Origin: a virus
Strand: one strand, 5' to 3'
Length of the DNA: 64,000 bases
Virus record (IMG/VR): IMGVR_UViG_3300047546_001733
Location: 1 to 64,000 of that record
In this document: positions 16,203 through 29,797 of the stretch, piece by piece
Layout: each line of letters opens with the position of its first letter
How positions within the stretch are numbered: position 1 is the stretch's first letter
The notes under the pieces: model-generated
What the model was told of the DNA's origin: nothing
The model's database searches: none
Seen by the model: the letters and a program-made list of their open reading frames with translations, nothing else
Program-made: the position numbers and the translations under genes

Positions 16203-16583
16203 CTCACGAGGAGCAAGGGAGTACGGAATGACCAGCGATAGCAAAAGTGTACCAGTGAAATAGGAAAAAAAGAGTGCACACGCTTCCATTGGTACAAAAC
16301 TTGTCGTATCAAAGTATGCAAGAAGAATACCGGCTACCACCGTATACCGAGTAAATAAAAACGGTACTTGAAGTAAAAAAAGAGGGTCACTCTGGTAGTC
16401 TGGTAGCCAGTCATACACTAGCGCATAGTAAACCGAGAACCCTGTAAGAAGAAGGGATGCGACGAGGATGCTATAAGTTGATATTCCCCCACCGTAGACA
16501 AAAGCGAGAAGGTGATTGCTGTATCGCTCGTATTGCGTAGTAATAAATCTTGTAATTGCCCACGCATTCCAGTTTCGTTCCAT
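16194..16583 (-). CDS. Hypothetical membrane protein, 129 aa
   Basis: Three hydrophobic helices (roughly residues 36-58, 66-90, 102-122) after a polar N-terminus. Overlaps the VanW-like gene by 166 nt in another frame. The start is uncertain: AGGA lies 12 nt from the ATG at 16583 and no better start exists before the first helix. Function unknown. Confidence 0.5.
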   Translation of the reverse strand: MERNWNAWAITRFITTQYERYSNHLLAFVYGGGISTYSILVASLLLTGFSVYYALVYDWLPDYQSDPLFLLQVPFLFTRYTVVAGILLAYFDTTSFVPMEACALFFSYFTGTLLLSLVIPYSLAPREYP

Positions 16584-16990
16584 ATCGAGACGTTGTCCTG
16601 CCTTTCTACCCGTAATAACGGGGTACTGTGAATTACAAAGGTACGCTCAAGTCCAAGTTTTCGTGCTAACTCCGCATATCGAGATGCGACATCACACCAC
16701 CCACCCCCATACACGCCGTATACAGTCACCAGTTGATACCGGTCTGGGTGACCTACCGCTTCGTTAAACGACCATTCCTCACCCGGCTGTATGGTAAATT
16801 GAGACAGGGCGGGCAGGATAGCCTCAATGTTATGGTCAATCCCCGACCCTTTCGGAATAGGGGTTGCCGTTACTGAATGCGTATGTGGGAGAATACTCAC
16901 CACAAATAAACTAAGGAAACAGAAGGCGAAGAATATCAACCGTGGGCGTAAAGTGAATGTCTGAGCATCCATACGTCTTAGAAAATTCAC
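16418..16990 (-). CDS. VanW-like secreted protein, 190 aa
   Basis: N-terminal membrane segment or signal peptide (about residues 17-37), then the VanW-type core: an FNE.VG strand-turn near residue 78, GVYGGGWCDVASR, and the late NETGMRGQLQDLLLRNTSD strand pair. VanW proteins are of unknown biochemistry, first noted near vancomycin resistance genes, and many are cell-wall linked. GTG start with TTGGAG 7 nt upstream; it overlaps the preceding gene by 80 nt. Confidence 0.65.
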   Translation of the reverse strand: MNFLRRMDAQTFTLRPRLIFFAFCFLSLFVVSILPHTHSVTATPIPKGSGIDHNIEAILPALSQFTIQPGEEWSFNEAVGHPDRYQLVTVYGVYGGGWCDVASRYAELARKLGLERTFVIHSTPLLRVERQDNVSIWNETGMRGQLQDLLLRNTSDTAITFSLLSTVGEYQLIASSSHPFFLQGSRFTMR

Positions 16991-17301: not shown

Positions 17302-17685
17302 CTAATGCCCGAGGATTTCTTTAATGATAACTCGGTTAATGCGGGTATATTTATAGCCACCAAAGGCGGATAATCGCTCTCGAATTCGTTCTGCGAGATA
17401 ATTATAGACCTCTTTTGTTGACACCATATTCTTTGTGACTGCGGTGTGCACCGTAGCACAGTCTCCGTATACTTTTAAATAAACCTTACTCATGTCTTCG
17501 ACGTTGATGTGTAACCAGCGGAGCGCACGTAATAACACGGTAAACTCCGCTTGGTTACTATCACCAATCCCATCCATCTCATACGTTTGATGATGTCTCA
17601 GACATTCTTCCTTTACACTGTCAATGTAGACCTTAAAGCTCCCATGGACAGTTCCCCCATCAAAATAGAGATGAATCGTTTTCAT
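17302..17685 (-). CDS. RNase H-like fold protein, 127 aa
   Basis: RNase HI pattern: FDGG at residues 8-11 (first Asp), NQAEF (Glu), YGDCATV (third Asp). The usual final Asp in the last helix is not evident (RVIIKEIL), so activity is uncertain. RNase HI removes RNA from RNA-DNA hybrids, e.g. replication primers. Starts 3 nt after the BMP lipoprotein gene. Confidence 0.65.
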   Translation of the reverse strand: MKTIHLYFDGGTVHGSFKVYIDSVKEECLRHHQTYEMDGIGDSNQAEFTVLLRALRWLHINVEDMSKVYLKVYGDCATVHTAVTKNMVSTKEVYNYLAERIRERLSAFGGYKYTRINRVIIKEILGH

Positions 17686-17687
17686 CC

Positions 17688-18842
17688 TTACTGACCGTCA
17701 ATGCCCTTCAACAACTGTGTCTGATACCATACGGTCTTCGTGTCACCAGTTGCACCTGCGGGAATAAATGTACTTCCATCCTTGTACATCAACGGACCAG
17801 TCCACAAATTCAAGCCGTCCTTAAGTGCGGTAAGGAACATTCCAAGTGACTTTGTTTGTGTTAGACCAGCACCCATCATAAATCCAATACCGCTCGTGTC
17901 ATGATTGTTCAAGTCAGCGAAGTTTGGACCAAACAAGACAAAACCGGGCTTCCATGTTCCTGCGATGTGTGCTTGTACCATCTTCTTGTATTCGGGGTAC
18001 CAGTTAAAGTATGGTACGCCAATACACGGGGCGGGACCCTTATCACACGCTCCCTTAAAGTCATAGGGAATACTCTTGACTGCCTTACCGCTTGCGTGTG
18101 CCTTTGCAACTTCTGTGACAACTTCGGGTGTGTCAATACCTGACATAATCACATCATACCCTTGCGTAATGTAATCGTTAATCACCAACGTTGGGTCAAG
18201 AGTTACACCCGGGATGTTGAACCAGAATCCAATCCACTTGACCGAGAACCGAAGTAGTGCTGGGTCTTGTGCTTTGTAGGATGTCCAACAGTATTGTGCA
18301 CCCAAATAAGCGGCATTTACCAAACGCCGAGTTTCGTCGTTAATCAGGGGACCAACATAAGCAATCTTCCCTGTGTTCGACTCCAGAGCCGCCGCACACC
18401 CGGCAATCATCTTCCCATACTCCATTTGCCCCATCATGTTACCAAGATTTGCCGGTGCCTTACCGGTCATTACGTCGTCACCTGATGCGTGCAAGAAAGA
18501 TACGTTGGGGTAATTAACTGCCGCCTCTCGAATGCTGTCTTTAAAGTCATCCGAATTAGCGATAATCATGGTCGCCCCTTGGGAAATAAGTTCGCTGGCT
18601 ACCTTTTCTGCGCTGACGTTGGGTCGGTCGGCTGGATTCACCTTGTCAACGTAAATAAATGTTACGTTCTCTTCCGCTTCGACTTGCTTCATCGCCTCAT
18701 AATGGGCTTGGCTCCAGCCACCGTCGTTCTTTGGACCAACCAGAATCATACCAATTGTAGGTTTCTGCGCTTCTACTGGCGCACCACATGATGCAAGCAT
18801 AAGCACTGCAAATGCAAGCAACGCAAATTTCCAAACTGACAT
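17688..18842 (-). CDS. BMP-family substrate-binding lipoprotein, 384 aa
   Basis: Lipoprotein signal with lipobox LASC (Cys19), so exported and lipid-anchored. The body matches the BMP/PnrA group of ABC-transporter binding proteins: IGMILVGPKNDGGWSQAH start, a TMIIANSDDFKDSI region,  YPNVSFLHASG, and GYDVIMSGIDTP in the second lobe. Known members bind nucleosides or related nutrients. No permease or ATPase gene is in the window, so it would have to feed a host transporter, or serve as a surface decoy or receptor blocker. It has its own consensus promoter and a hairpin in its leader (TAGCAC/GTGCTA). Full length for the family, so it looks intact. Confidence 0.8.
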   Translation of the reverse strand: MSVWKFALLAFAVLMLASCGAPVEAQKPTIGMILVGPKNDGGWSQAHYEAMKQVEAEENVTFIYVDKVNPADRPNVSAEKVASELISQGATMIIANSDDFKDSIREAAVNYPNVSFLHASGDDVMTGKAPANLGNMMGQMEYGKMIAGCAAALESNTGKIAYVGPLINDETRRLVNAAYLGAQYCWTSYKAQDPALLRFSVKWIGFWFNIPGVTLDPTLVINDYITQGYDVIMSGIDTPEVVTEVAKAHASGKAVKSIPYDFKGACDKGPAPCIGVPYFNWYPEYKKMVQAHIAGTWKPGFVLFGPNFADLNNHDTSGIGFMMGAGLTQTKSLGMFLTALKDGLNLWTGPLMYKDGSTFIPAGATGDTKTVWYQTQLLKGIDGQ

Positions 18843-18887
18843 AGCATCTCCTCGAGTGATGTTAGCACTTGTTTGTGCTACTTAGGT

Positions 18888-18916
18888 AGTATACCATAAT
18901 TATTTTTGTCTGTCAA
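18888..18916 (-). promoter_or_regulatory. Sigma70 promoter of BMP lipoprotein gene
   Basis: TTGACA-17-TATACT with TGG; lies at the 3' end of the methyltransferase gene, uncoupling the lipoprotein from the lysis operon. Confidence 0.85.
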
Positions 18917-23066: not shown

Positions 23067-25676
23067 TTACCTCACTGTTGTATTACTTACTGGTTTTGCG
23101 AGAATGGGTAACACTGACTGAGAAACTGCTGTTTTACCTCGTAGCGCATAAATAAAACACAAGTAACTTGCAAAGATATGGTCATCGTCAGAGGCACCAA
23201 CACCCCGTTCATTCATGATGTAGTAGTGGTCATTTCCGGTGATACGTTTCTGACGAGTAAGTCGCTCTAACTGACTTACACCCTCAGTGTCTATCTCAGA
23301 AAATAAGAGCGTACCCTCTGAGACCATTCGTGCGATTTCCTTCGAACCCCAACTGCGAAATACCTCAGTAAGTTCAGTATCGTCGTCTGTTCTACCAACT
23401 GACACACGCTCATTAAAAAGCACAGGAATAATTCTTTCAGCATATTTGTAAACAGTATATTCCTCCCGACTACAAAGTGATTGGTAGATACCCGCACCAC
23501 CACCACCTGCGCCTACGTCAATTGCAATCTTTGTGGGATTATAAAACTGAGTAAGGTAATGGATAATTGACTCTTGTTCAGGATAATCAATCTTAGTAAT
23601 TCGGTATCGTACAAGTGTAATATATTTATTATTCTTCGCCGCAACCACCTGTATAACGGTTGGGTCTGAAAATCCAGTGTCTATAGAAAAAATAACATAA
23701 TCATAACCAGTAACTTTATGTAACTTTAGTACGTCCTTAAATGACTTCCCCTTTAGTTTATCATTGTTAGAAAAACGATAACTAAAAAAATCAACCTGCT
23801 CAAGGGTAAATGCGTCTCTAGGAATTACTTGAAAACTTGCTGACCCATGACGACCAAGTACAAGTTGTTGAAAAATGTCTTCCTCGATACCTCCGTACTT
23901 GCGGAGTGCGTCATTCCAGTCATCTAGTGTAAAGTATGGATTGTTTGGTGACGGGATGCGATACTTTTTATACTTTGGGCGACGGATGTCTAGGTCGTAA
24001 AGCGCACTGTTTCGTAATCCGTTAGGTACACCACAGTAAATTTCCTGTATCTTTGGTTCCCACGTATTTAGTGTAGGCTGGAGTTGATTAAAAGCGGTCA
24101 TGGGAAACAACTGCATCTCATCGCCAGCAATACGTGGAATATGTAAACCTACTAAGTTATTACTTTCTTTTGTACCCGCAATACGGGCATTAAACCGGTG
24201 ATTTCGCGAGCCAAACTTGAAATCTAGCGTACCTTTCGAGCGATTAATGTTATTACCCAGAAAGTCTTTTAGTAACGGGCTTGTAGTAAATTTAAGTACA
24301 AGTCTGTCAAGTAACGGTGTTAACTGATTTGAGTTTGGGGTTACAAGAAGTTGTTCAGACGTTTTTGGGAATTCAATGTCATTGTTAACAATCTGGTAAG
24401 TCAGTAAGTCTTCAATAATCACCGAATTATGCACAACAATATAGTTAGAAATATACGTCTCGTCAGTATAAACGTGTACTGCATAAGTGGGCATATTGTA
24501 GGAACGACTTTTCCTGTGCTCAATCGCCTCCCAACGTATATTATCTGGTGGTTCTACGTTACTAAGGTCTAGGTTGACTTTAATACCAGGTACAGTGAAT
24601 GTAGACCAGAAGCGTAGTGCATTTTCTTTATCTAGCGTGGTTATTTCCCAGATAGAAAAGTCGCCGGTATATCCGTGGGTTTTTTGTACAACATCACCAG
24701 TCTTTTTTCTGGTTGTGCTTATACCAAAGTATAACAAAATTTCTTGAAACTCTTTTGTAAAATTTTCGTTTGGTACTCTCAGAGATACTTCGGTACTTGA
24801 GAAAGCACCATACTGAGCAAAAACTGCCTCTAGAAAAACTTTAATATTCTCGAGACGTTGAGTTTTTAAAAAGTCTAAATTTTGTTTCTTGCGTCCGTTG
24901 CTTTTTGTGTTAATACCACACTCACGCCACAATTGACGAATGTAGTGCCGTGTCTGCCCAGTTTTAATGCGGTCGAGATAATACTTACCATCCTCAATTC
25001 GTAAATTAAGAAACATATTCTTAGCAATAAATTCGAGTTCTTCTGCAACTTGTTTAAACCGTGGTTTGATTCCCATATATCCAATGACCTTTAGGTCGTT
25101 GAGAATATCATAACCCATCGCACGTAATTCAAACCATGAGAATGTATTTAATACGCAGTGGTCAGTTGGTAAAATGTTTGTGACTGCAACTAAGTCGCCC
25201 ACAACCAAGTCACCTGCAAGTACAAAGCCACGAGGCGTAAGTATCGGATGGTTATACGTACATTCAATTTCTTGAGTAGCTGTTTTAAATTTATGTAACT
25301 TTGCCCATTTATCCTTTGTAATAGTAGCCCGCCGCTGTTTAAATTTACCGTCGGTGGAATACGCATAAGTAACAAAAGAGTCTTTACGCAATAATTCACC
25401 GATAGTTTTAAAGCCCTCAGTGGTATATACCGTGGACGATGTTGGCTGACATTTACCAATTGAGCGACCGCCGGTGATAACAATATGTTTATTTTGGTCT
25501 GTAAGAATTTCGCGTTGGTATGGGCGGTGCTTAAATTCATCTGATGACCAGTTATTTTTATTCATGTCCCCGTTATTTGTTGAGCGAAGGAATTCACTAA
25601 ACCACACAGGGTCTTCTATAATCTCGAGTAAGGCTAACTCCGATTCATCAATTTTCTTCTGTAGAGCCATCCTCAT
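23067..25676 (-). CDS. terL: Large terminase subunit with intein, 869 aa
   Basis: DNA-packaging motor. After removal of a 342-residue intein (76-417) the mature protein is 527 aa. The intein splits the Walker A motif: GGRSIGK directly before it and Ser418 directly after. IAGDEMQLF is the Walker B region; the C-terminal RNase H-fold nuclease shows FSIDTGFSDPT, AIDVGAGGGG and SDDDHIFA with the expected acidic residues. Motor activity therefore depends on splicing. Overlaps the upstream gene by 29 nt. Confidence 0.9.
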   Translation of the reverse strand: MRMALQKKIDESELALLEIIEDPVWFSEFLRSTNNGDMNKNNWSSDEFKHRPYQREILTDQNKHIVITGGRSIGKCQPTSSTVYTTEGFKTIGELLRKDSFVTYAYSTDGKFKQRRATITKDKWAKLHKFKTATQEIECTYNHPILTPRGFVLAGDLVVGDLVAVTNILPTDHCVLNTFSWFELRAMGYDILNDLKVIGYMGIKPRFKQVAEELEFIAKNMFLNLRIEDGKYYLDRIKTGQTRHYIRQLWRECGINTKSNGRKKQNLDFLKTQRLENIKVFLEAVFAQYGAFSSTEVSLRVPNENFTKEFQEILLYFGISTTRKKTGDVVQKTHGYTGDFSIWEITTLDKENALRFWSTFTVPGIKVNLDLSNVEPPDNIRWEAIEHRKSRSYNMPTYAVHVYTDETYISNYIVVHNSVIIEDLLTYQIVNNDIEFPKTSEQLLVTPNSNQLTPLLDRLVLKFTTSPLLKDFLGNNINRSKGTLDFKFGSRNHRFNARIAGTKESNNLVGLHIPRIAGDEMQLFPMTAFNQLQPTLNTWEPKIQEIYCGVPNGLRNSALYDLDIRRPKYKKYRIPSPNNPYFTLDDWNDALRKYGGIEEDIFQQLVLGRHGSASFQVIPRDAFTLEQVDFFSYRFSNNDKLKGKSFKDVLKLHKVTGYDYVIFSIDTGFSDPTVIQVVAAKNNKYITLVRYRITKIDYPEQESIIHYLTQFYNPTKIAIDVGAGGGGAGIYQSLCSREEYTVYKYAERIIPVLFNERVSVGRTDDDTELTEVFRSWGSKEIARMVSEGTLLFSEIDTEGVSQLERLTRQKRITGNDHYYIMNERGVGASDDDHIFASYLCFIYALRGKTAVSQSVLPILAKPVSNTTVR
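24426..25451 (-). mobile_element. Intein in terminase P-loop, decayed homing endonuclease
   Basis: 342 residues, first Cys, last His-Asn, followed by Ser: all four splicing residues are present. N-terminal block CQPTSSTVYTTEG, block B TYNHPILTPRG, C-terminal block YAVHVYTDETYISNYIVVHN. The middle has the size and pattern of a LAGLIDADG endonuclease (FLEAVFAQYGAF... then EFQEILLYFGIS), but the Asp expected in the LFDADG position is replaced, so cutting is probably lost while splicing is kept. Confidence 0.9.
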
Positions 25677-26398: not shown

Positions 26399-28543
26399 TC
26401 AGCGTACTGGGCAAGCCCCACCAACACAATCAGGGTCAAACTCATCTTCATCTGTAGCCGTTGATTCACGGGCATACAAAGCTTTCACAATATCCTGCCA
26501 TGTGATGTGAGCAACATTGAGGTGATGCCATGCCCACTGGGCTTCATCAATTTCCTCGTATGGCATAAGCGGGTACGCACCACTGTATTTTGGTAGGAAT
26601 GATACCCCGATGTAATCATCCCAGTTTGACATAATTAGGTCAATAATATCATTCACCTCATCGTTATTAAACGTGATGGTAATTGACGTATTGTGGTCAG
26701 TCCAATACTTTTGGAGCGTGAAATACCGTTTTAGTTGTTCAACAGCGGATTCCTCATTTGCAGAGCGGGTTGCGCTTGTGCGAATAGGAAATTCAATCAC
26801 CCACGTCTGTGCTTTATCCAATACCAACATTTTTTCGTAGTCGCCGAGAAGTTTAAATTCCTCTGGCATCATGACTGATGCTTCTGGGTATGTTGGATAA
26901 CCGACGGCAAGCATCGCCTTCGCAAGCGGGTCAAAACTAGAAATACGAACACGACGAATGTAATATGGCGCATACGATGCGTGAGCACCACTTGACACAG
27001 TCGGTAGTTGTGCAATAGTACCACTTGGTTTTTGTGTAGTAACCAGCAGGGGAACGGGAATACGAAGTTCACTTGCATACTCCTGAGCCGCTTTATTTGC
27101 AATTTTATTCAACTCACCCAAGAACATCGCCAACGGGTACTGCATAAGACTGCCGTCGCTATTTAAGATGGGAACGAGTGCAGTTTCATCAGTAGAGTCC
27201 ACACCACAGGCGTCCATAGCCTCAACATACCCCGTGAAAGATACCCCAGTCAAACGGTCACGCTTCTGTACTTCATCCCAATGGGGAAGTTCTAGTGTAA
27301 CCGTAGTCATACGCAGTCCAATACGTGTGGCAAGAATAACTGCGTTTGCAAGCGCATTATAGTCAATCTTACCATTTTTCACATACCCAGCCATGTTGAT
27401 TTCTGACAAATTACATACACCATTGTCCGCAAGTAATATTTCGGCACATGGATTTGTACCAGCATAATTTGGGCGACGTTTTGAAGCCGCCTCGGCATTG
27501 ATAAAGCCCGGCTCACCATTATCCGCAATACGGGAAAAAATATCCTTGAGTTGCTCTCTGGTTGGCTTCTTTTGAAAATAAACCGAGTTGTTACTCATTG
27601 AGCGATACCGAAATTCTGCCTTGTTTGGGTCACTCCAAAGATTTGACTTTGCGTCAAGTACATCTTTGTCGGTAATATCAAACAACGTAATTTCACTAGA
27701 ACGACGTACCCCACCAACGACAACACACGAGCCGATAATATTCATAATATCCATCGCCTGTACGGTGGTTAGTTTATTATTACCACGACACATAACACGG
27801 TGAATCTGTTTGAACATATCACGCAGTGCGGTATGACCAGATGCACGTCCACCAAAAGTTTTGAGTACTTCACCCTGTTGACGCACATTATCGTAGTTAA
27901 TCATAATGGACTCAACATACTTCTCTGAGCGCATAGTCTCAAAGTACGCATTCAAAGCAGAAACCCAACCCTCTTTCGAATCACCAACAATAATATAAAC
28001 ACCACCAGAATCTTCATAAACCTGTGTTTCATCAATACGTTGTTCAGCCTTCTTTGGGTGATACGGCTTATGAGCAACAACTACGTTGGTTTTAATTTCT
28101 GCAAGTTGGCTCACATCACTTGGAAGAACACGAAATCCAACACCAGTACCCAACATCATCAAGTAAAAAGCATCCACAAATGCAGTGAATGAGTCCACTA
28201 CAGTAAAAGAACAATTAAAATTAGCCAGAGGAAACTTGCGAGCGGCTTCAGTTCCACCAATCCACATAGTACGCCCTGCGGTGAACAAACGTAAGTTAAA
28301 CATCTCATCAAAGAAATGCTCCGCTTCTTGACGAAGTAGAGCAGTATCTGTAGGATTGGAATGTAAACTCATAGAATACTCAACAACACGGTGACACGTT
28401 TCTTTCCAGTGTTCTCTCCGACCTAACTCGGGAATAAACCTCGAGTAAGTACGCAAATAAACAAATTGCCCAAGAATAGAATTCCACTCAGGATTGTCAG
28501 CATACTTGCTAAGAAAAGAATCGCTCAAATAACTAGTTTTCAT
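26399..28543 (-). CDS. nrdJ: Class II (B12-dependent) ribonucleotide reductase, 714 aa
   Basis: Makes deoxyribonucleotides using adenosylcobalamin. Monomeric type as in the Lactobacillus triphosphate reductase. Visible: FNCSF (Cys111, redox), NPCAEI (Cys366 thiyl site, Glu368), NGVCNLSEIN (Cys377, second redox Cys), and C-terminal Cys706/Cys711 spaced CxxxxC, which are recharged by thioredoxin. A thioredoxin-like gene lies at 63355. Works without oxygen or a separate radical subunit. Confidence 0.92.
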   Translation of the reverse strand: MKTSYLSDSFLSKYADNPEWNSILGQFVYLRTYSRFIPELGRREHWKETCHRVVEYSMSLHSNPTDTALLRQEAEHFFDEMFNLRLFTAGRTMWIGGTEAARKFPLANFNCSFTVVDSFTAFVDAFYLMMLGTGVGFRVLPSDVSQLAEIKTNVVVAHKPYHPKKAEQRIDETQVYEDSGGVYIIVGDSKEGWVSALNAYFETMRSEKYVESIMINYDNVRQQGEVLKTFGGRASGHTALRDMFKQIHRVMCRGNNKLTTVQAMDIMNIIGSCVVVGGVRRSSEITLFDITDKDVLDAKSNLWSDPNKAEFRYRSMSNNSVYFQKKPTREQLKDIFSRIADNGEPGFINAEAASKRRPNYAGTNPCAEILLADNGVCNLSEINMAGYVKNGKIDYNALANAVILATRIGLRMTTVTLELPHWDEVQKRDRLTGVSFTGYVEAMDACGVDSTDETALVPILNSDGSLMQYPLAMFLGELNKIANKAAQEYASELRIPVPLLVTTQKPSGTIAQLPTVSSGAHASYAPYYIRRVRISSFDPLAKAMLAVGYPTYPEASVMMPEEFKLLGDYEKMLVLDKAQTWVIEFPIRTSATRSANEESAVEQLKRYFTLQKYWTDHNTSITITFNNDEVNDIIDLIMSNWDDYIGVSFLPKYSGAYPLMPYEEIDEAQWAWHHLNVAHITWQDIVKALYARESTATDEDEFDPDCVGGACPVR

Positions 28544-29694: not shown

Positions 29695-29723
29695 ATTATA
29701 CCACACCGTGAAAAGTTTGTCAA
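29695..29723 (-). promoter_or_regulatory. Perfect sigma70 promoter, leftward
   Basis: TTGACA-17-TATAAT with TGG; starts the leftward nucleotide/packaging operon. A CCCC/GGGG hairpin lies just after the start point, and about 80 nt of very AT-rich leader follows. Confidence 0.9.
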
Positions 29724-29746
29724 GTCCCCCTTAATTTGCGGTTGTA

Positions 29747-29775
29747 TTGACAATTCACTCCGCCCATGGTATAAT
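29747..29775 (+). promoter_or_regulatory. Perfect sigma70 promoter, rightward
   Basis: TTGACA-17-TATAAT with TGG, only 23 nt from the leftward -35; drives the regulator gene and probably the virion genes. Confidence 0.9.
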
Positions 29776-29781
29776 TTTATT

Positions 29782-29797
29782 GGGTATATGTATACCC
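29782..29797 (+). promoter_or_regulatory. Inverted repeat operator at start site
   Basis: GGGTATA-TG-TATACCC lies exactly at the predicted +1 of the rightward promoter; a good repressor site, possibly for the downstream regulator. Confidence 0.6.

Follow-up and report, generated by a model that had tools for sequence, protein, structure and literature searches.

The BMP gene and its protein

We analyzed a stretch of 64,000 nucleotides (the window), which is part of a 72,156-base IMG/VR virus record. The following features lie at the locus:

17688..18842, minus strand: gene for a BMP/PnrA-like solute-binding lipoprotein of 384 aa (PF02608, phmmer, conservation in phage relatives, dN/dS)
18786..18842, minus strand: lipoprotein signal sequence MSVWKFALLAFAVLMLASC with lipobox LASC and Cys19 (sequence)
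18848..18853, minus strand: Shine-Dalgarno sequence GAGGAG ahead of the BMP ATG (sequence)
18863..18880, minus strand: hairpin UAGCAC-AAACAA-GUGCUA at the inferred 5' end of the transcript (fold compared with shuffles)
18888..18916, minus strand: promoter TTGACA-17-TGnTATACT with an extended -10 element (11/12 matches)
17302..17685, minus strand: conserved downstream neighbor, weakly RNase H-like (motif, synteny), starting 3 bases after the BMP stop codon

The BMP open reading frame starts with ATG and is full length, with 384 residues. The protein scored 62.2 bits against PF02608 (Bmp; cut-off 24.1), with the best stretch at residues 28-184. Based on phmmer, the nearest solved sequences are the Brucella basic membrane lipoprotein 3s99 (6e-18) and AtzT (6pi5; 1.5e-16), and these matches span most of the length; no PHROG or NCBIfam family covers the protein. 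The N-terminus reads MSVWKFALLAFAVLMLASC-G and contains the lipobox L16-A-S-C19, i.e., the combination of signal and lipobox that, by motif only, marks the exported lipoproteins of PF02608. A complete BMP-family binding protein with signal and lipobox, as put forward in the original prediction, is therefore confirmed. A lipobox-like Cys is present in every BMP copy of the phage lineage of the window (lineage A) and of a second phage lineage (lineage B, see below), and the ribosome site is also conserved in phage BMP genes.

The protein had been described as rare in phages, which is correct for named phage records but not within its own lineage, where the gene is standard. A collection of 50,697 phage records gave matches of only about 25%. 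Three BMP-bearing GenBank phage records that were opened (L088, MT836531; L089, MT836066; L090, MT835719) contain bacterial BMP-ABC operons rather than phage genes; they are unverified "Bacteriophage sp." scaffolds from human faeces and probably misassigned. In the literature searched, we found no reports on BMP/PnrA proteins in phages; "PNRA" in a paper on Antarctic viruses refers to a funding agency and to no BMP/PnrA protein.

BMP has its own promoter and a structured leader

In the BMP promoter, TTGACA (18916-18911) is separated by 17 bases from TATACT, which ends at 18888 and is preceded by TG. Loose promoter sites in the 2.2-kb stretch around the gene numbered 4, with 4.0 expected by chance. 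The promoter recurs in L004 and L006-L011, and in L053 with TAAAAT, at 44-52 bases upstream of the start codon; its spacing of 17 and the TG are kept in phage loci though the remaining upstream sequence diverges. No promoter of this kind was found upstream of the BMP gene in L005, L050, L051, and L066. The claim that BMP has its own strong promoter is borne out by the 11/12 match, the TG extension, and the recurrence in many relatives. Because the whole window contains 19 strong sites, compared with 0.7 in shuffles, the BMP promoter belongs to a class used widely by the phage. In some promoter-bearing relatives, a GC-rich hairpin with a T-run lies just upstream of the promoter region, arguing that the BMP gene is probably its own transcription unit in these phages.

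The fold of the leader hairpin in the window beats all but 0.1% of shuffles, and for each of the BMP leaders tested, only 0.05-1.5% of its shuffles reach a comparable stability. Among relatives, a stem persists and the sequence differs. We suggest that the hairpin stabilizes the BMP message; no Rfam match was found near the gene. Elsewhere in the window (29700-29790), two perfect 12/12 promoters point away from each other (29723, minus; 29747, plus), each with a hairpin at its inferred transcript start. A promoter combined with a start hairpin, as in the BMP leader and in this pair, is possibly a general design of the strong transcripts of the phage.

The BMP gene occupies a conserved slot and is under purifying selection

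Scanning 2.9 million viral contigs for the portal protein, we identified 16 loci, some of them on contigs that are near-copies of one another. All 11 portal-bearing contigs that extend past the lysis genes contain the BMP gene, and the remaining 5 of the 16 end before the slot. Typically, ribonucleotide reductase comes first, then a 216-aa gene, the intein-containing terminase, the portal and amidase genes, two small genes, and in some cases a methyltransferase; BMP follows, and after it the RNase H-like gene and frequently one for a VanW-like protein. The exceptions are L053, in which BMP lies elsewhere in the genome, and L050, in which two genes separate BMP from the RNase H-like gene. Assignment of the neighbor at 17302..17685 as RNase H-like is weak, based on a motif and one match below the cut-off (PF13456, E 0.018, in the L010 homologue); this protein had no match in the PDB.

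Three further observations concern the neighborhood. The protein encoded at 16418-16990, which is conserved downstream of BMP in several relatives, has a VanW-like domain (PF04294) and a hydrophobic N-terminus. The large terminase (23067-25676) has an intein-like insertion at residues 88-417 (PF14890, Intein_splicing; score below the curated cut-off). Finally, in L067, L069, L052, and L074, an ORF of 215-250 aa interrupts the homologue of the ribonucleotide reductase gene at 26399-28543; these ORFs are probably homing endonuclease or intron insertions.

Pairwise dN/dS for BMP within the window lineage is about 0.05-0.10 wherever dS is measurable; the near-identical pair L004/L010 has too few changes for an estimate. 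Thus, the BMP gene is under strong purifying selection and, because it is also carried by 11/11 reachable relatives, is not a stray cargo gene. BMP identity does not track that of the neighboring genes: Between the window and L010, BMP is 71% and the portal 93% identical, and between the window and L005, BMP is 70% and the terminase 56% identical, indicating that phages exchange the BMP gene.

Cellular relatives point to a Chloroflexota donor

Of the 37 cellular relatives examined first (about 50% identity), most of those with enough flank have ABC ATPase and BPD_transp_2 permease genes downstream of BMP. An adenine deaminase (TIGR01178) precedes BMP in several, and an 8-oxoguanine deaminase (PRK08203) with carbamoyltransferases and carbamate kinase in others. 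BMP-ATPase-permease operons together with base deaminases fit a purine-base importer.

In 350 Chloroflexota genomes, we found 45 close BMP homologues, the best of which are 57-61% identical, and all 20 of the close loci opened have the order BMP-ATPase-permease-permease. A further search of the donor class added homologues at 59-61%. In the tree, BMP of the window lineage groups at 99/98 with genes from Chloroflexota genomes of about 3 Mb (G161, G654, G645, G649, and G651), making this lineage the probable donor. The BMP proteins of these genomes (L097 and L117-L120) are 59-61% identical to phage BMP and have the same key pocket residues; they differ in having Y53, where phage BMP has R or Q, and in their downstream genes: an ABC ATPase and, on loci of sufficient length, two permeases, none of which the phage has. 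A single origin of BMP within the window lineage is not rejected (AU p 0.53); the BMP of L052 may be a second capture.

The original prediction expected that a phylogeny with host BMP proteins would also identify the host. The grouping with Chloroflexota stands; for the host, we infer from the kinship of this gene only that it is probably a Chloroflexota bacterium. A search with the phage portal in 158 donor-class genomes, which had no positive control, gave no match. Patescibacteria are unlikely as hosts, with a close BMP in 1 of 239 genomes.

BMP is also encoded by a second phage group (lineage B, L055-L065), with portal and SU10-type capsid genes nearby, and by a third lineage (lineage C, L054, a 144-kb record). 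These proteins are 45-48% identical to the window BMP and branch among different cellular groups, and the BMP tree forces at least three separate changes. These two unrelated phage lineages acquired BMP proteins separately, also without permeases. The L054 protein has no lipobox and an apparently ordinary signal peptide. In lineage B, the gene beside BMP (L056, 5173-8490) encodes a 1105-aa protein with tRNA nucleotidyltransferase/poly(A)-polymerase domains.

The phage lacks the rest of the importer and encodes DNA-precursor enzymes

Profile searches of the whole 72,156-base record detected neither BPD_transp_2 nor ABC_tran, and the statement that no transporter genes accompany BMP holds for this entire record. 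BPD_transp_2 was found in 0 of 14 phage records and ABC_tran in 0 of 6, where the records may be incomplete. Within the same bounds of record completeness, the window BMP is a receptor gene without permease or ATPase, as in the PstS type.

Two nucleotide genes are relevant:

26399..28543, minus strand: class II (B12-type) ribonucleotide reductase, upstream of BMP (PF17975, PF02867, PF21995; phrog_367, 588 bits)
65819-66403 of the record: ThyX, beyond the 64-kb window

The fit with nucleotide genes of the phage, suggested earlier, is therefore a real link. Ribonucleotide reductase is present in the window record and in 8 of 8 further BMP-bearing records searched, and ThyX in five lineage-A records including that of the window; a thymidylate-synthase-like gene lies near the L054 BMP copy. 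Because ribonucleotide reductase is common in phages of such size, its co-occurrence with BMP is supportive only. BMP-bearing phages were found to have no phosphoribosyltransferase, and use of an imported base would therefore depend on salvage by the host.

The ligand pocket favors a purine base

AtzT contacts guanine through Y45, S97, F98 (backbone), E165, W194, N218, and N220 and also binds 2-hydroxyatrazine, and 3s99 holds adenine (PMC6834077). The AtzT residues align, in this order, to W43, S97, D98, E170, W207, G235, and D237 of BMP. Thus, BMP has the two stacking aromatics (W43 and W207), Ser (S97), Glu (E170), and Asn/Asp (D237) of a purine-base pocket. Except for position 235, all of these residues are invariant across the phage copies of all three lineages; G235 is shared by lineages A and C, and lineage B has the H found in 3s99. 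Cellular relatives mostly share W, S, E, W, G, and D, and have D at position 98 or, in many Chloroflexota, A. BMP resembles AtzT (guanine) and 3s99 (adenine) in family, stacking aromatics, Ser, and Glu, and 3s99 also in the Asp. It differs from both, which are bacterial chromosome genes, by its low identity and by G235 in place of the AtzT contact N218 or of H. In lineage B, K144, N209, and G235 are changed, and the ligand may consequently differ. Most lineage-A copies keep 81-89 of 91 cell-conserved positions. At position 53, at least 95% of cellular proteins have Y, but lineage-A phages have R and the window has Q, a replacement that might alter docking to the permease.

The cargo had been proposed to be a nucleoside or another nutrient. 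A purine base is likelier than a nucleoside, given the adenine or guanine held by the nearest solved relatives and the adenine and 8-oxoguanine deaminases that adjoin cellular ones. The purine-nucleoside lipoproteins PnrA and BmpD are likewise BMP-family (PF02608) lipoproteins for ABC importers of purine compounds; they differ in binding nucleosides, are more distant in sequence, and are not among the best matches of BMP.

Discussion

Here, we describe a phage gene for a complete BMP lipoprotein with a predicted export signal, a recurring promoter, conserved pocket residues, and a record of purifying selection; its kin belong to complete importer operons, and no permease genes were found with it. 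Its ligand, its docking to a host permease, and its benefit to infection are read from these features. We propose, with a probability of roughly 0.6, that BMP acts as an orphan receptor for purine bases, cooperates with the importer of the host, and feeds salvage and the phage ribonucleotide reductase. According to this model, the gene was taken from a Chloroflexota purine-base ABC importer as the solute-binding subunit alone. During infection, BMP would be transcribed from its own strong promoter, exported, and lipid-anchored on the outer face of the cytoplasmic membrane, where it would bind adenine, guanine, or a close relative and hand the base to the resident permease and ATPase of the host. 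Host salvage would convert the imported base to ribonucleotides, and the phage ribonucleotide reductase would turn these into DNA precursors. A receptor without the rest of the importer suggests that DNA building blocks are kept flowing via the host's own importer. Uptake through a host permease, as envisaged in the original prediction, is thus supported by the anatomy of the system: the intact pocket, the export signal, purifying selection, the lack of a permease, and probable donor genes at the head of complete operons; the likelier cargo is a purine base. The spread of BMP through its phage lineage and its acquisition by unrelated phages go beyond the original prediction.

We consider it possible, at clearly lower odds, that the same machine carries another cargo, i.e., a nucleoside, xanthine, uric acid, or another small N-heterocycle, which might serve as a source of nitrogen or carbon and not for DNA synthesis. 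PF02608 includes the nucleoside binders PnrA and BmpD (PMC7093131), AtzT accepts 2-hydroxyatrazine in addition to guanine (PMC6834077), and the carbamoyltransferase and carbamate kinase genes beside some cellular relatives suggest breakdown of N-rich compounds. However, the ligands of the nearest solved relatives are adenine or guanine, the deaminases for adenine and 8-oxoguanine act on bases, and the phage carries DNA-precursor enzymes.

It is improbable that phage BMP instead occupies or jams the host importer, and thereby excludes purine analogues or rival signals or alters purine sensing by the host. The lineage-wide Y53R/Q replacement at so conserved a position and the lack of a permease are compatible with such interference; however, a simple blocker does not need a pocket, and here the pocket is fully kept under purifying selection, as are nearly all cell-conserved positions in most lineage-A copies. 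The same argument speaks against superinfection exclusion, in which the lipoprotein would block or mask a phage receptor at the surface, perhaps the importer itself. BMP is predicted to be a surface lipoprotein, and its gene lies near lysis genes; however, known exclusion lipoproteins are small and lack a ligand pocket, and BMP, as a 384-aa binding protein with an invariant pocket, does not resemble the small lipoproteins of the Llp/Ltp type, which block a phage receptor or DNA entry. An invariant pocket would be superfluous in a decoy or blocker; the suggested action at the surface against superinfection finds no support, and we regard it as very improbable. Lastly, an assembly or binning artefact joining a host gene to a phage contig, as the three bacterial fragments among GenBank "phage" records might suggest, is refuted by synteny conserved across independent assemblies, in which BMP has terminase, portal, endolysin, and ribonucleotide reductase as neighbors on many separate contigs, and by the low dN/dS and the phage clade of its own.

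Returning to the orphan purine-base receptor, its precedent is cyanophage PstS, a phage-encoded phosphate-binding protein, carriage of which correlates with normal lysis timing under phosphate starvation and which is found in about a third of Kyanoviridae at a position that is not conserved (PMC10976474). PstS, like BMP, is a phage-encoded receptor subunit from the host that is thought to act via the host importer. The two differ in fold family and ligand, and, in contrast to PstS, every reachable relative carries BMP, in most cases at a single slot and behind its own promoter. Such orphan proteins are thus already known; what is new here is a phage-encoded orphan binding protein for purines that is found throughout its lineage.

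Phage nutrient-uptake genes are best known for phosphate in cyanophages, and our findings point to purine import as another bottleneck that phages may relieve through the host envelope. In addition, the kinship of BMP suggests which lineage may host an uncultivated group of phages. Moreover, we think it somewhat better than an even chance that the receptor of a host purine-base importer was captured on separate occasions by at least three unrelated phage lineages, one of which made it lineage-wide with a dedicated promoter. If so, purine supply across the cell envelope, beyond the recycling of nucleotides, would limit the replication of these phages, and one supplied part would be enough for phages to commandeer a nucleobase importer.
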